25,564 nucleotides of DNA from a virus. Shown piece by piece: positions 3,779 through 21,986 of the stretch (position 1 is the stretch's first letter; each line of letters opens with the position of its first letter). Under the pieces are notes generated by a model. It was given only the letters and a program-made list of their open reading frames with translations. It searched no databases and had not been told where the DNA came from. The stretch lies in the IMG/VR virus record IMGVR_UViG_3300042883_000387, positions 1-25,564 of that record; one strand, written 5' to 3'. The translations under genes were made by a program, and so were the position numbers.

Positions 3779-4257
3779 TATTTTTTAACTTGTGGCCCTT
3801 GTAGTAATCTTCCGATCATTGAATTAGTATTTAGATTAGTGCTTGTTTTATTTAATCTTCCTTTTGGTGTTAATCCTAATTCATTCATTAAAACAACAAT
3901 TAATTTTAAAGATTCTTTGCGAATAGAAACATAAGGCGATGGCCCAATAGTCTTTCCGTCATTAAAGCTTGTTACTAAACCTTCAACGGCAATATGACGA
4001 TTGCAATCTATGTAAGTATCAATCTGATCTGCAAGCATGGCCAATGCATGTTTATCTTGATCCGAACCTAAACCATAAAGATCATAAAGATAGTTAGAAG
4101 TTTCTAAAACAAATTTTGGTTTATTCCAAGCGTCAGGATTATCCATCCACTCTGCTTGAGGAATTCTTGTGCGTAAATTTTCAGGCAAGGGAATTCCCAT
4201 GTTTTCGCCTTTTGTTCCTTTAACTATGTGAAGTTCGGGTGGAAGTTTAGCGGTCAT
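3778..4257 (-). CDS. terS: Terminase small subunit (P27-like)
   Basis: The product of about 159 residues sits directly upstream of terL and resembles the P27-family small terminase. It has an N-terminal Pro-rich segment, a helical middle ('LYDLYGLGSDQDKHALAML') and a C-terminal 'LVVLMNELGLTPKGRLN'-like ending in the form 'MNELGLTPKGRLN'. It should bind the packaging site and present DNA to TerL. I chose the ATG at 4257 over the in-frame GTG at 4266. The run AAGGGGGGG lies about 8 nt before the ATG, and this ATG shares its A with the stop of the preceding GIY-YIG gene. The family call is by similarity and context. Confidence 0.8.
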   Translation of the reverse strand: MTAKLPPELHIVKGTKGENMGIPLPENLRTRIPQAEWMDNPDAWNKPKFVLETSNYLYDLYGLGSDQDKHALAMLADQIDTYIDCNRHIAVEGLVTSFNDGKTIGPSPYVSIRKESLKLIVVLMNELGLTPKGRLNKTSTNLNTNSMIGRLLQGPQVKK

Positions 4258-5090
4258 TATAGACACCCCCCCTTAAAAACCCCTTTTGTGAAAGATTGGT
4301 TTCGCGCTTGCTCGTTCTGATTGCCCAAAAACATTAAGATATTCAATGACTTACGCTTATCAGCTTCCTTTGCATCTAAATAAGCACGCTTAACTATTTC
4401 AATATCTTTAGAATATTTAATATGTTTTCCTTTATATTGTGCATGCCATCTACCACTAGGATGCCATGATATGCCAGGCAATCCTAACTTATTGTTTGGA
4501 TGAGCTTTGCGTTCTTTAGTTATGTCTTGTGTCCATTTAGGTATAACGCTTCTAATTAATTCTAATCTAACTCTTTTAGCGTAAGCGTTACACTTTATAG
4601 CATATCCATTAGCTTCAGATTCTCTGCGTTTAGCAATCCCTTTAGCTAATCTATTAATAGTTATAGGATCATTCAAGTTAAGCCATTCAATGCGCCTTCT
4701 ATTAGCCAATCCACCCTCGTATGTATTAACTATATCGCCACCTTGTGCTACATTCCATCCTATATTAATAGTAGGTCTTAACTTCTTCTCTATCTCTTGG
4801 CAATATTCTCTATGATCTGTAGCTAATATAACCTCAAATATAATATCTTTATACTTGTTAATAGCACGATGCACAGGTAACGATCCGTCTTGTCTAGCGT
4901 CTAACTTATGGTGATACCATCGTTTAGATACTTGCTTATTGGTAATACCTACATAACCTTCAGTAAATATATCTGTATGTTCGGGCTTATGAATCCAATA
5001 AACAACTGATGATCCAACAGGCTGAAGATGATGACCTTTATATCCTTTAAGGTATTTAAAGTGATTAATATTAGTAGCGTGTTTAGTCAT
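4257..5090 (-). CDS. GIY-YIG homing-type endonuclease, AP2-like C-terminus
   Basis: The 277-residue protein has an N-terminal GIY-YIG-like nuclease domain: 'VVYWIHKP' (GIY strand), 'EGYVGIT' (YIG strand) at about residues 44-50, then 'KRWYHHK' with the conserved Arg. 'CQEIEKKLRP' follows, with the conserved Glu, and 'NIGWNVAQGG'. Near residue 215 'GISWHPSGRWHAQYKGKHI' looks like an AP2/integrase-type DNA-binding module. This is the plan of a mobile homing endonuclease that cuts and copies itself into unoccupied alleles. It lies between the DUF6378-like gene (8-nt overlap) and terS (shared TAATG), suggesting precise insertion at the 5' end of terS. A second GIY-YIG gene is at 21495-21986. Confidence 0.85.
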   Translation of the reverse strand: MTKHATNINHFKYLKGYKGHHLQPVGSSVVYWIHKPEHTDIFTEGYVGITNKQVSKRWYHHKLDARQDGSLPVHRAINKYKDIIFEVILATDHREYCQEIEKKLRPTINIGWNVAQGGDIVNTYEGGLANRRRIEWLNLNDPITINRLAKGIAKRRESEANGYAIKCNAYAKRVRLELIRSVIPKWTQDITKERKAHPNNKLGLPGISWHPSGRWHAQYKGKHIKYSKDIEIVKRAYLDAKEADKRKSLNILMFLGNQNEQARNQSFTKGVFKGGCL

Positions 5091-14067: not shown

Positions 14068-14610
14068 ATGAAAACTTCCGAAAGCATCAAACAGATAGCT
14101 GAAGCTTTAGTATCTGCGCAAAAAGAAATTAGATTTGCCGCTAAAGATTCTACTAACCCTCATTTTAAATCCAAGTATGCCAATATTAATTCAGTTATTG
14201 AAGCGGTTAAGAAGCCACTTAATGATAATGGTATTGCAATACTCCAATCATTAAGCCCATCAGACGACAATAAACTCCATCTAACAACTCGATTACTCCA
14301 TAGTTCGGGCGAATGGATTGAGGATACTGCCGTCTGTCCTATTCAGAAACAAGATCCGCAAGGATTGGGATCAGCGATTTCTTATATTCGCCGATACTCC
14401 ATATCTAGTCTTTGCGCTCTTTATGCCGATGATGACGATGGTCAATCCGCCGCGCTTAATGCCGCAGATTATCTTCAAAAAATTGCTCATTCCGAAACTT
14501 TAGAAGAACTTCAGGCTAATTATAATTTTGTAATGGGTGAAGTTAAGAATGATCGCACTCTATCTAAAATGGTAATAGAAGCTAAAGATAAAAGAAAGGC
14601 GGAGCTATGA
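14068..14610 (+). CDS. erf: ERF-family single-strand annealing protein
   Basis: The 180-residue product matches the ERF superfamily, phage annealing proteins that pair complementary single strands in RecA-independent recombination. Landmarks are 'ALVSAQKEIRFAAKDSTNPH', 'FKSKYANINSVIEAVKKPL', 'NGIAILQSL', 'LTTRLLHSSGEWIED' and 'DPQGLGSAISYIRRYSISSL' followed by 'DDDDGQSA'. It probably works with the YqaJ-type exonuclease three genes downstream, like lambda Red beta with alpha. The leader AGGACAAGATAAG resembles that of several other genes here. Its end overlaps the next gene by ATGA. Confidence 0.92.
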   Translation: MKTSESIKQIAEALVSAQKEIRFAAKDSTNPHFKSKYANINSVIEAVKKPLNDNGIAILQSLSPSDDNKLHLTTRLLHSSGEWIEDTAVCPIQKQDPQGLGSAISYIRRYSISSLCALYADDDDGQSAALNAADYLQKIAHSETLEELQANYNFVMGEVKNDRTLSKMVIEAKDKRKAEL

Positions 14611-14780: not shown

Positions 14781-15223
14781 ATGGCACTTATTCTTATAAA
14801 CAAAGAAATAATGTCATTAACATAGCGGAAGTATTATTTGAATCATATTGCCAATCAAAAGGATATTTTTATAGAAGATTAGGCTTTGATGAGAAGAACG
14901 ATCCAATTCCTAACTTTTATGACCTTAATACTTTTATTAGAAATATGCCTGATTTTTATATTAACAATAATGGTAAGGCTGGGTTAATAATGGTAAAGGG
15001 AACTGCCAATATTAAAGCTTCAGAAATTAAAATGCTTCCAATGTTTATGGAATGGTATAGCTCTGAAAAATGTCCTTTGCTTTATGCTTTTTGTTTTAAA
15101 GATCACAAACCTTTATTGCTTCATCCTGATAGATTAATAAGTCTTTATGAGCAATCAATAGATCAACAATGGCATGATGGCGTTACTTATAGAAACTTAA
15201 ATTTAAACAAGGAAACTATATGA
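14777..15223 (+). CDS. PD-(D/E)XK-like protein with an atypical active site
   Basis: The 148-residue protein has the shape of a small restriction-fold nuclease: an N-terminal helix ('NVINIAEVLFESYCQSKGYF'), then 'RNMPDFYINNNGKAGLIMVK' and 'MEWYSSEKCPLLYAFCFKD'. In PD-(D/E)XK enzymes the core reads P-D ... E-x-K; here Pro58-Asp59 is followed by Met72-Val-Lys74, so the expected Glu is a Met. It may be inactive or use a migrated acidic residue. It is encoded between ERF and the YqaJ-type exonuclease, with ATGA overlaps. The fold assignment is tentative. Confidence 0.5.
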   Translation: MNGTYSYKQRNNVINIAEVLFESYCQSKGYFYRRLGFDEKNDPIPNFYDLNTFIRNMPDFYINNNGKAGLIMVKGTANIKASEIKMLPMFMEWYSSEKCPLLYAFCFKDHKPLLLHPDRLISLYEQSIDQQWHDGVTYRNLNLNKETI

Positions 15224-15885
15224 AATTAGAAGAAAGAATTATTAGGGATGTAATTCAGGGATCGGAAAAATGGATGGCGCTCCGCATCTCAAAAATAGGT
15301 GGATCAAGAATAAGTGATCTTTTAACTGAAGGTCGATCAGGTGGCGAATCATTAACCCGTAAAAAATATAAGAATGAGCTTATAAGGGAAAATTTAACAC
15401 AAAAAAAATTAGATACTTGGAAATCACCCGCGATGATTAGAGGTATCGAGCTTGAGCCGTTGGCGCGTTCCTGGTATGAAGTTAAGCATAATGTCTTTGT
15501 GGATCAAGTGGCTATTGTTAAACATCCTACAATTGAAAATGCTCAATGCAGTCCTGATGGAATTGTATTTGCTGATAAGCCATATTTAATTGAAATAAAA
15601 GTGCCTGATCCGCAGAACCATTTGGACAACATTTTAACAGGTGGCAAGCAATTAGAACAGTATTACGATCAATGCATGTGGCAATTAGCTTGCATGCCTG
15701 AAATGGAATTTTGTGATCTCATTTCTTTTGATCCCGAACTTACAGGATTAGAAGGATTTGTGAAGCGTATTTATCGAGATGATGAGTATATTAAAATGAT
15801 GGAAGATAAGGTGATCTTATTCTTACAGGAAATAGAAACTACTGTAAATAACTTAAAGGAAATACAAAATGGCAATAACCCATGA
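15220..15885 (+). CDS. YqaJ/lambda-exonuclease-type recombinase nuclease
   Basis: The 221-residue product is a YqaJ-like viral recombination exonuclease. 'VIQGSEKWMALRISKIGGSR' is the family's N-terminal signature, 'MIRGIELEPLARSWYE' supplies an acidic helix residue, and 'CSPDGIVFADKPYLIEIKVP' carries the catalytic Asp113, Glu125 and Lys127. 'YYDQCMWQLACM' is the later conserved Gln helix. It digests double-stranded ends to give single strands for the ERF protein. CAAGGAAACTAT precedes the ATG; the end overlaps the SSB-like gene. Confidence 0.92.
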   Translation: MKLEERIIRDVIQGSEKWMALRISKIGGSRISDLLTEGRSGGESLTRKKYKNELIRENLTQKKLDTWKSPAMIRGIELEPLARSWYEVKHNVFVDQVAIVKHPTIENAQCSPDGIVFADKPYLIEIKVPDPQNHLDNILTGGKQLEQYYDQCMWQLACMPEMEFCDLISFDPELTGLEGFVKRIYRDDEYIKMMEDKVILFLQEIETTVNNLKEIQNGNNP

Positions 15886-16093
15886 TCTAATCGCTAAAAC
15901 AGGCGAGTATGTAAACAAAGAAGGCGAAACAAAAGCTCGCTGGACTAAAGTCGGCGTGGCTATGTCGAATAAACAAGGTGGCACTTCACTTCTCATAGAA
16001 TCTATTCCTGTCAATTTTGACGGCTGGGTAACAATGAGAGAACCTCAACCTAAAGAAGGCGGATCAGAAAGCAAAGCTGACTTACCATTTTAA
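15869..16093 (+). CDS. Small SSB-like protein
   Basis: The 74-residue protein has 'KTGEYVNKEGETKARWTKVG', 'VAMSNKQGGTSLLIESIPV' and a low-complexity tail ending 'SESKADLPF'. The beta-rich core plus an acidic/aromatic 'DLPF' end recalls bacterial SSB tails, where a C-terminal DIPF recruits partner proteins. It lies just after the ERF and exonuclease genes, a usual place for a phage ssDNA-binding protein. The similarity is short and the length is below normal SSB size, so the call is tentative. TAAAGGAAATACAAA precedes the ATG. Confidence 0.5.
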   Translation: MAITHDLIAKTGEYVNKEGETKARWTKVGVAMSNKQGGTSLLIESIPVNFDGWVTMREPQPKEGGSESKADLPF

Positions 16094-16167
16094 TGATTTT
16101 ACTGATGGCGTGAGCCACAATGTAGCCCATAATGATTGTGCAGTATTTATTAATTAAGGGGAATAAT

Positions 16168-16239
16168 ATGTGGACTACACCATCAGCTCAAGAAATGAGA
16201 TTTGGCTTTGAAGTAACAATGTATGTAATGAATAAATAA
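16168..16239 (+). CDS. pqqA: PqqA, pyrroloquinoline quinone precursor peptide
   Basis: The ORF encodes exactly 23 residues: MWTTPSAQEM, then RFGFEVTMYVMNK. This is the length and pattern of bacterial PqqA, as in Klebsiella PqqA with its 'GLEVTLY' core. Glu15 and Tyr19, the two residues that PqqE (with PqqD) cross-links and that become PQQ itself, are both present in 'FEVTMY'. A very strong ribosome-binding site (AAGGGGA, 5 nt before ATG) precedes it and a rho-independent terminator follows within 25 nt. It is the last gene of the recombination operon and no pqqB-E gene is present, so the peptide would have to use host enzymes. PQQ is the cofactor of periplasmic methanol dehydrogenases. Confidence 0.9.
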   Translation: MWTTPSAQEMRFGFEVTMYVMNK

Positions 16240-16261
16240 TATATACATTATATATATAATT

Positions 16262-16285
16262 AAGGGGCTTAACTGCCCCTTTTTT
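16262..16285 (+). terminator. Rho-independent terminator after pqqA
   Basis: AAGGGGC (16262-16268), a six-base loop, GCCCCTT (16275-16281) and a continuing T run form a textbook intrinsic terminator for rightward transcription. On the other strand the stem is followed by AATTATAT rather than a T run, so it should act mainly rightward. It ends the operon that starts near 12944. Confidence 0.9.
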
Positions 16286-16362
16286 ATTGTGTGTATAGTG
16301 TGTATTTAAATGTGTAATATATATCACTTTTTTTGATTTAATTATTAAAGTTTCATGCAATT

Positions 16363-17374: not shown

Positions 17375-17560
17375 CTAATTAATGAGATGGCGTTCGAGAG
17401 CCATAAACAAACTGTCGCTAGAAGATATATAGCAGATAGAACCATCAGATAGTAAAATAACCAAATAATTTTTACCATCGTAACTATCAGAGCCAATATC
17501 TTTGATTGTTTTATTTTGTAGAAAATCAAAGTGATCATCAATCGTTTCTATAGAACTCAA
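17375..17560 (-). CDS. Hypothetical 61-aa protein (TTG start)
   Basis: The protein shows alternating strands ('NKTIKDIGSDSYDGKNYLVI', 'LLSDGSICYISSSDSLFMAL') like a small beta-sheet domain. I do not recognise it. The only standard start is TTG at 17560, overlapping the end of the glycosyltransferase gene by 23 nt, and the ribosome-binding site is weak. Coupled translation from the upstream gene is likely if it is expressed. Confidence 0.5.
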   Translation of the reverse strand: MSSIETIDDHFDFLQNKTIKDIGSDSYDGKNYLVILLSDGSICYISSSDSLFMALERHLIN

Positions 17561-18584
17561 GATTGGTTTTTAACCTTTCGTTATCAGGTTCTAATTCTAA
17601 CGCAATTTCACCATGATGTCTTGCTTCACACTTCATATCTAAATAATATGCAGATAAAGCAATAAGATCATGCGGTAATGCACCCCATACATCAGGTCGC
17701 ATTGTATAAACTAAAGCTTTGTCTTTAATGTCTAATGCTTTTAATGCAGCTTCATAACATTCGCGCCACATCTTTTTAGCCATATATGATTCAGCTAATT
17801 CAACATGAGGTTCACGAGTATTAGGTGCTTCTTTACAAGCTTTCTTATACCACTCAATGCCATTCTGACCTAATGCGTCATAGCATTTACCTAACAATCT
17901 CATGGCATAACATCTTTCGTTAGGCCAAGTAGCTTCAGGCATATCTAAATACTTATTTAAAGCCACTACCGCATCAAGCCATTTATGATAGAAGGTTAGT
18001 TCCCTTGCATAATAAAAAGCGTTTCTAGGGCATCTAGGGTCTTCAGTAACCGCCAATAATAATAAATCAAGGTATTGTCCTCTTGATTTACTTGGATCAG
18101 GTTTATGGATCACAAGCAACATATCTGTTTGCGCCCATACTTCAGTAATTCTTTTATCTGCTACTGGATATTCATGGCAAGGATGATGCCAATGATAACC
18201 ATGTCTAGCATGAATTTTTTCATAATAGAAAACTATTCCAACACCCCAATCAAATTTATATCTTAATCGAGTAGTGTTATCTTTCCATACTTTTTCTATT
18301 TCTTCGCGCCAGCCTGGTTGCAGTTCTTCATCTAAATCTAATGATATACAAACATCAAAGTCTTTAGGAATAAGTGCTAATGCCGCATCGCGAGCTTTAT
18401 CAAAGCGCCAAGGGCTGATTGCTATATCATAAACAACCGCACCATGTTTTTTAGATAACTTAATTGTGTTATCAGTTGATCCTGTATCAGCTATTAAAAT
18501 TAAATCTGCATCTTTAGCGGATTCACAAAATCTTTTTACAAATTGTTCTTCATTCTTTGATATGGCATATACCGCTATCTTCAT
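17538..18584 (-). CDS. GT2-family glycosyltransferase with TPR-like C-terminus
   Basis: The 348-residue protein starts with a GT-A fold: 'MKIAVYAISKNEEQFVKRF', 'LIADTGSTDNT' (residues 31-40) and 'VCISLDLDEELQPGW', with the metal/sugar-nucleotide-binding DLDEE at 83-87. The C-terminal part (about 200-345) has TPR-like helical pairs ('WYKKACKEAPNTREPHVELA', 'AALKALDIKD'), as in many phage tail-region glycosyltransferases. It lies 20 nt downstream of the collagen-like fibre gene, with leader AAAGGATAAGATAAG. It could glycosylate the fibre, host surface or DNA; the fibre is favoured by position only. Confidence 0.82.
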   Translation of the reverse strand: MKIAVYAISKNEEQFVKRFCESAKDADLILIADTGSTDNTIKLSKKHGAVVYDIAISPWRFDKARDAALALIPKDFDVCISLDLDEELQPGWREEIEKVWKDNTTRLRYKFDWGVGIVFYYEKIHARHGYHWHHPCHEYPVADKRITEVWAQTDMLLVIHKPDPSKSRGQYLDLLLLAVTEDPRCPRNAFYYARELTFYHKWLDAVVALNKYLDMPEATWPNERCYAMRLLGKCYDALGQNGIEWYKKACKEAPNTREPHVELAESYMAKKMWRECYEAALKALDIKDKALVYTMRPDVWGALPHDLIALSAYYLDMKCEARHHGEIALELEPDNERLKTNLEFYRND

Positions 18585-21494: not shown

Positions 21495-21986
21495 CTATGA
21501 TGCTACCCTGCCCTTCATCTCAAATGACCATCCATCTTTAGGTGGATAAAATTTATTAGGCATTTTTCTGCCTTTACATTTTCTTATAATTGCGCTTTGT
21601 TCAAGATTATAAGCGTTTGCGGCTTCCTGTGATGTAACAAATTTGCCTTTAGGTGTTATATACCAACCTTTAAAATTAGGTGCATTTTCGCCATATTGTT
21701 CAAAATTAGGATTTTCTTTACCAAGCATTGTGTTATTTCGATAACCACCAATTGCTTTATTTAAACCAATATTTTTTAATGGTCTTAATTGCTTTTCAAG
21801 ATCATAGCAATATTCTTTAGTTGAAACCACAATCTTTTCAACAATTAAATTATTCCAAATAGCTTTAAATTTGTGTTTGTGTTCGCGCAATCTTTTGGCG
21901 AAATTTGGAGTTACACCGACATATCCATCTTTAAATATGTCATTTTGATTTGGCTCATGTAGCCAATATACTGAATAGATAGCCAT
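21495..21986 (-). CDS. GIY-YIG homing-type endonuclease with NUMOD-like C-terminus
   Basis: The 163-residue protein has the GIY-YIG core: 'YSVYWLHEPNQNDIFKDGYV' then 'GVTPNFAKRLREHK', with the conserved Arg, 'YCYDLEKQLRPLKNIGLNKA' with the conserved Glu, and 'IGGYRN'. The C-terminus ('WYITPKGKFVTSQEAANAYN', 'LEQSAIIRKCKG') is a NUMOD1-like DNA-binding segment common in phage homing endonucleases. It shares the 'HEPNQNDIF/HKPEHTDIF..GYVG' insertion with the GIY-YIG gene at 4257-5090, so the two are related. Both lie flush against the start of the downstream gene. Confidence 0.88.
   Translation of the reverse strand: MAIYSVYWLHEPNQNDIFKDGYVGVTPNFAKRLREHKHKFKAIWNNLIVEKIVVSTKEYCYDLEKQLRPLKNIGLNKAIGGYRNNTMLGKENPNFEQYGENAPNFKGWYITPKGKFVTSQEAANAYNLEQSAIIRKCKGRKMPNKFYPPKDGWSFEMKGRVAS

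Follow-up and report, generated by a model that had tools for sequence, protein, structure and literature searches.

The window, the whole 25,564-nucleotide stretch analyzed here, is an IMG/VR virus record (IMGVR_UViG_3300042883_000387) that is collinear with the cultured phage P19250A, which was isolated on the Methylophilaceae bacterium IMCC19250 of the LD28 clade. Identity between the window and P19250A is 92% for the portal protein, 85% for TerL, 94% for the ERF protein, 73% for the exonuclease, 85% for the SSB-like protein, and 91% for PqqA, the precursor peptide of PQQ. Given this collinearity, the host of the window phage is very likely an LD28-type ("Ca. Methylopumilus") methylotroph. 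The pqqA gene ends a plus-strand block encoding the ERF protein, a 148-aa protein, a YqaJ-type exonuclease, and a 74-aa SSB-like protein, and a convergent minus-strand block faces it. The features around pqqA are as follows:

14068..14610, plus strand: ERF single-strand annealing protein, probably in the same operon as pqqA (comparison with relatives)
15220..15885, plus strand: YqaJ-type exonuclease, used as the anchor for relatives (profile and comparison with relatives)
15869..16093, plus strand: SSB-like gene, 74 aa, immediately upstream of pqqA (the equivalent gene of MW202481 is annotated as a putative SSB)
16154..16167, plus strand: Shine-Dalgarno region TTAAGGGGAATAAT (read from the sequence; motif also in relatives)
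16168..16239, plus strand: pqqA, 23-codon PQQ precursor peptide MWTTPSAQEMRFGFEVTMYVMNK (profile matches, Glu15/Tyr19)
16262..16290, plus strand: intrinsic terminator-like hairpin with its T run, separating pqqA from the convergent operon (sequence and relatives)

The pqqA ORF consists of an ATG, 22 further codons, and a TAA, and its translation, with Glu at position 15 and Tyr at position 19, confirms both the PqqA-length reading frame and the FGFEVTMY core with the two residues in register that a preliminary description of this DNA had pointed out. The profile search proposed there bore out the assignment: the peptide scored 40.3 bits (E = 3e-10) against the Pfam profile PF08042, which has a cut-off of 21.1 bits, and 37.2 bits (E = 1.8e-9) against the NCBIfam profile TIGR02107, which has a cut-off of 20 bits. 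Scored against a PqqA consensus, real copies reached 100 to 125, whereas the best 23-residue segments in 20 shuffles of one related 8.7-kb locus reached 14 to 22, placing the pqqA match far beyond chance. No match at E ≤ 1 was found when the PDB was searched with the peptide. With scores above both profile cut-offs, the E-x-x-x-Y spacing of the residues that become PQQ, and a short stand-alone peptide preceded by a ribosome-binding site and lying within the expected size of about 22 to 25 residues, the window gene is confirmed at the sequence level as a true pqqA.

The ATG of pqqA begins 7 nt after the GGGG of the Shine-Dalgarno-like TTAAGGGG. This ribosome-binding site had been described as very strong; the site is real, but the adjective was slightly generous, since TTAAGGGGAATAAT-ATG offers TAAGG plus two further G and not a complete AGGAGG. 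A Shine-Dalgarno motif lies upstream of 152 of 152 copies, compared with 11% of random ATGs, and of all 103 copies in a further set. Downstream, the hairpin AAGGGGC-TTAACT-GCCCCTT occupies positions 16262–16281, 23 nt past the pqqA stop, and is followed by the T run; terminator-like hairpins are found within 120 nt downstream in 58 of 149 relatives (39%), against 32 of 1,490 random positions (2%). The terminator noted earlier is therefore present, but calling it the gene's own needs qualification: no promoter-like site above chance lies directly upstream of pqqA, which is thus probably the last gene of the ERF–exonuclease–SSB-like operon and probably shares a transcript with the SSB-like gene.

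Conservation was examined with the pattern ATGTGGACNNNNCC...GANNTGMGNTTYGGNTTY, which leaves Glu15 through the C terminus free. At least 120 viral contigs carry this pattern, and all 120 of those listed encode 23 codons with Glu15 and Tyr19, the Tyr19 codon being TAC in 61 and TAT in 60 when the window is included. Tyr19 is likewise present in 47 of 47 contigs with an MKWETP-type N terminus, for which the Tyr19 position was left free. The pN/pS ratio is 0.034 for codons 15–19, 0.12 for codons 15–23, and 0.56 for codons 4, 6, 7, and 8; as judged from these codon comparisons, viral pqqA is under strong purifying selection. Among close relatives anchored on the exonuclease and with enough flanking sequence, pqqA stands about 300 to 335 nt downstream in 23 of 23, and two more such relatives are cut by contig ends. 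Two distant exonuclease relatives (52–53% identity) were also found: in one, pqqA is on the opposite strand at a distance of 1.65 kb, and the other shows none within 942 nt. Loss of the frame, of Glu15, or of Tyr19 was seen in no close relative, so the conservation in related phage contigs on which the preliminary description had staked its reading holds without exception in the pattern-matched contigs and the close relatives.

The gene is widespread in uncultured viruses. A degenerate DNA pattern for FGFEVTMY matched at least 120 IMG/VR contigs, and the subset with Gly codon GGA or GGG, which accounts for 15 of the first 120 contigs listed, by itself matched at least 120; taking both scans as being in the same order, this gives a rough extrapolated lower bound of about 8 × 120 = 960 contigs with the strict motif. 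A complete stand-alone ORF of 22 to 25 codons is present in 142 of the 143 contigs listed from the first two patterns searched, the remaining one being cut by a contig end. Complete scans of IMG/VR returned 47 contigs for the MKWETP-type N-terminal pattern, which resembles the PqqA forms of gammaproteobacterial methylotrophs and methanotrophs, and three for an alphaproteobacterial-type pattern, indicating a strong bias to phages with PqqA of the beta- and gammaproteobacterial methylotroph type. Counting immediate neighbors, because single-linkage clustering had chained nearly all loci together, we found 98 different neighbor pairs of pqqA among 134 loci, which fits repeated, independent gain. 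One terminase family alone matches 22 of the 50 long pqqA contigs. As separate observations, the viral contigs L410 (266 kb) and L412 (18 kb) encode a Methylobacterium-like PqqA (MKWSAPIVQEVCVGMEVTSY...), a form rare outside the beta/gamma type, and L127, L132, and L133 (148–356 kb) carry a stand-alone pqqA of the EITMY type.

TBLASTN with PqqA matched 12 of 50,697 phage records searched. Nine are methylophage isolates from several lineages (P19250A, Venkman, MEP301, MEP401, MEP402, and four Melnitz phages), and the others are one uncultured podovirus and two records named Acinetobacter phage MD-2021a. The latter two were set aside: the match in CAKLQF020000010 adjoins pqqB, pqqC, pqqD, and other bacterial genes and probably reflects chromosomal contamination within the phage collection, and the second record, CAKLQH020000055, is 13 kb long. 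The nine isolates, together with the collinearity of the window with P19250A, place pqqA in bona fide phage genomes. Taxonomy also lists MEP431–434, HIM624-A, phiMB624-A, Venkman EXVC038S, MG-MTP1, and RSA-MFP1; any of these within the searched collection carry no detectable pqqA, and we do not claim that the gene is universal in cultured methylophages. In the regions compared around pqqA, what is in common with the window is limited to pqqA and two other proteins in Venkman, to pqqA and the ERF protein in MEP301, and to pqqA in MEP402 and Melnitz-1. P19250A has the same ORF in the same place, at 28153–28085, with no annotated feature there. The expectation that a 72-nt gene would easily be missed proved correct: five of the nine isolates have no feature over pqqA, and the four Melnitz phages have only a "hypothetical protein," the listed CDS in Melnitz-1 being on the opposite strand. 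PHROGs v4 contains no family matching the peptide, and this short gene, unannotated or called hypothetical in isolates, represents a blind spot of phage annotation.

The phages do not encode the remainder of the pathway. TBLASTN with host PqqB, PqqC, PqqD, and PqqE, positive in host control loci, detected none of these in 322 pqqA-bearing viral loci totaling 2.6 Mb, and the PqqE profile TIGR02109 was exceeded in none of 50 long viral contigs; pqqB-E linked to pqqA as a complete pqq operon was not found in phages, and no viral locus showed a second pqqA copy. Among Methylophilaceae genomes, in contrast, pqqA is present in 149 of 150, with a median of 4 copies and up to 12, many of them scattered orphans, and PqqE is encoded by 96 of 100, nearly always in a single copy. 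These data agree with the earlier proposal that the phage needs no other pqq gene, in that it would supply only the consumed substrate and rely on host enzymes. With about four pqqA copies for one PqqE, the hosts themselves raise pqqA dosage, and multiple copies in cultured strains have been reported before (PMC4109929). Both hosts and phages thus multiply pqqA, as would be expected if the consumed peptide limits PQQ output.

Comparison with Methylophilaceae genomes, another check that had been suggested, showed that the commonest viral PqqA peptide is identical to the commonest host peptide. A gene tree with host pqqA would be uninformative, given the 69 nt, the many identical peptides, and a selection of host sequences biased toward AT-rich codons. 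Identical host peptides and the pN/pS of 0.034 at codons 15–19 provide the homology and purifying selection expected of an auxiliary metabolic gene, and pqqA was most likely acquired from methylotroph hosts. The window peptide shares with Methylophilaceae PqqA its length, Glu15/Tyr19, and the consensus MWTxPxATEMRFGFEVTMYVMNK, and differs in having Ser6 and Gln8 where the Methylophilaceae form has Ala6 and Thr8. Host orphan copies also stand away from pqqBCDE, but the window gene lies in a phage recombination operon without pqqB-E.

PqqA is the consumed component of the PQQ pathway: each cofactor uses up one peptide, whose Glu15 and Tyr19 are cross-linked by PqqE/PqqD and then excised. Because it is the one component consumed, the phage need supply only the peptide. 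We consider it likely that phages keep this true pqqA as a single-gene auxiliary metabolic gene, supplying substrate peptide to sustain PQQ and methanol oxidation. Phage PqqA would be translated in the infected cell and converted to PQQ by host PqqB-E, maintaining or enlarging the PQQ pool as host transcripts dwindle in the course of infection; the activity of PQQ-dependent methanol dehydrogenase and the periplasmic energy supply might thereby be sustained, with a gain in phage fitness. A parallel may be drawn with cyanophages, whose psbA is an auxiliary metabolic gene replacing the fastest-consumed part of the host energy system, the high-turnover D1 protein. In both cases, the phage would provide the fastest-consumed component and the host the rest, but psbA specifies a structural protein subunit, and pqqA a substrate peptide of 23 residues for a RiPP cofactor pathway. 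According to the account in PMC9851590 of a study cited there, a cell-free extract converted 70–80% of added PqqA to PQQ. The identity of the phage peptide as PqqA and its competence as a substrate are well supported; its benefit to the phage is inferred. The roughly four pqqA copies already held by hosts count against a dosage benefit, as does the possibility that methanol dehydrogenase retains the PQQ already bound to it for longer than a short infection lasts. A PQQ-dependent alcohol/methanol dehydrogenase above cut-off accompanies pqqA in one of 50 long contigs only (IMGVR_UViG_3300025120_009955, 72 kb, at about 34.0–35.7 kb); the connection with methanol oxidation is therefore drawn from host biology. 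A search for AmoC, bearing on a link to pmoC phages, gave no match, and its control was likewise silent.

Phage PqqA might instead be made into PQQ for other ends, either as an antioxidant or for release to block a TonB-dependent PQQ receptor and so exclude competing phages. In favor of the latter, PQQ shuts PqqU, a transporter of E. coli, and prevents infection by a phage whose receptor is PqqU (PMC12124388). The concentration of the gene in phages with methylotroph-type PqqA, against three contigs of the alphaproteobacterial type, points rather to a methylotroph-specific need, and we regard these other ends as unlikely. We also know of no PqqU in Methylophilaceae and of no methylophage that targets PqqU, which weighs against receptor blocking. 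It is very improbable that the peptide acts as a decoy, occupying PqqD/PqqE to shut down host PQQ synthesis: a leader-like peptide translated at a high level could conceivably compete for PqqD, but Glu15 and Tyr19, which turnover requires and a decoy does not, vary in none of the 120 contigs listed, nor does Tyr19 in any of the 47 of the MKWETP type, and the commonest viral peptide is the same as that of the host.

We give least credence to the idea that viral pqqA is a passive passenger, or a misclassified host fragment, in which functionless orphan host copies were swept into contigs. The many orphan copies scattered through Methylophilaceae genomes would provide a source, and a bacterial origin is conceivable for some short IMG/VR contigs; against this stand the low pN/pS, the Shine-Dalgarno motif before every copy, the occurrence of the gene in sequenced isolates, its retention in place in all 23 exonuclease-anchored relatives, the match of 22 of 50 long contigs to one terminase family alone, and the diversity of neighbor pairs, which fits repeated gain and retention.

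Viral pqqA itself is already known. A T4-like population from Lake Baikal, VP_266, predicted to be a Methylophilaceae phage, was reported in 2020 to encode PqqA, which was proposed as an auxiliary metabolic gene (PMC7678222). Its representative also encodes methanol dehydrogenase, resembling in this the 72-kb contig described above, whereas the window belongs to a small P19250A-like phage in which pqqA occurs alone, and this stand-alone form spans many lineages and cultured isolates. We found no other report of viral PqqA in the open-access literature searched, and pqqA goes unmentioned in the papers on Venkman, MEP301, MEP401/402, and Melnitz; what is new here is the stand-alone form, its breadth, and its invisibility to annotation. 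With less assurance than for the substrate-supply role itself, we lean toward the broader view that phages in many unrelated lineages, with methylotrophs and related PQQ-makers as hosts, have converged on carrying the consumed precursor peptide of a RiPP cofactor and nothing else of the pathway, that infection of methylotrophs may generally be controlled through PqqA dosage, and that pqqA may be among the commonest methylophage metabolic genes, missed at 72 nt. Should phages feed the PQQ pathway as a rule, they would affect how OM43 and LD28, methylotrophs abundant in aquatic habitats, oxidize methanol. Cultured phage–host pairs with pqqA are available (Venkman and Melnitz on H5P1, MEP301, MEP401/402, and P19250A), making the claim directly testable; the medium of the Melnitz host contained 1 nM PQQ (PMC9004378).

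Elsewhere in the window, a large collagen-repeat protein (PF01391, 18605–21010), a 2OG-Fe(II) oxygenase (PF13640, 22345–22923), and a GT2 glycosyltransferase (17538–18584) are encoded close together on the minus strand, and a collagen-like tail fiber could be the target of hydroxylation and glycosylation by the latter two. Two similar-looking minus-strand ORFs, at 4257–5090 and 21495–21986, are possible homing endonucleases, the second having a subthreshold GIY-YIG match.
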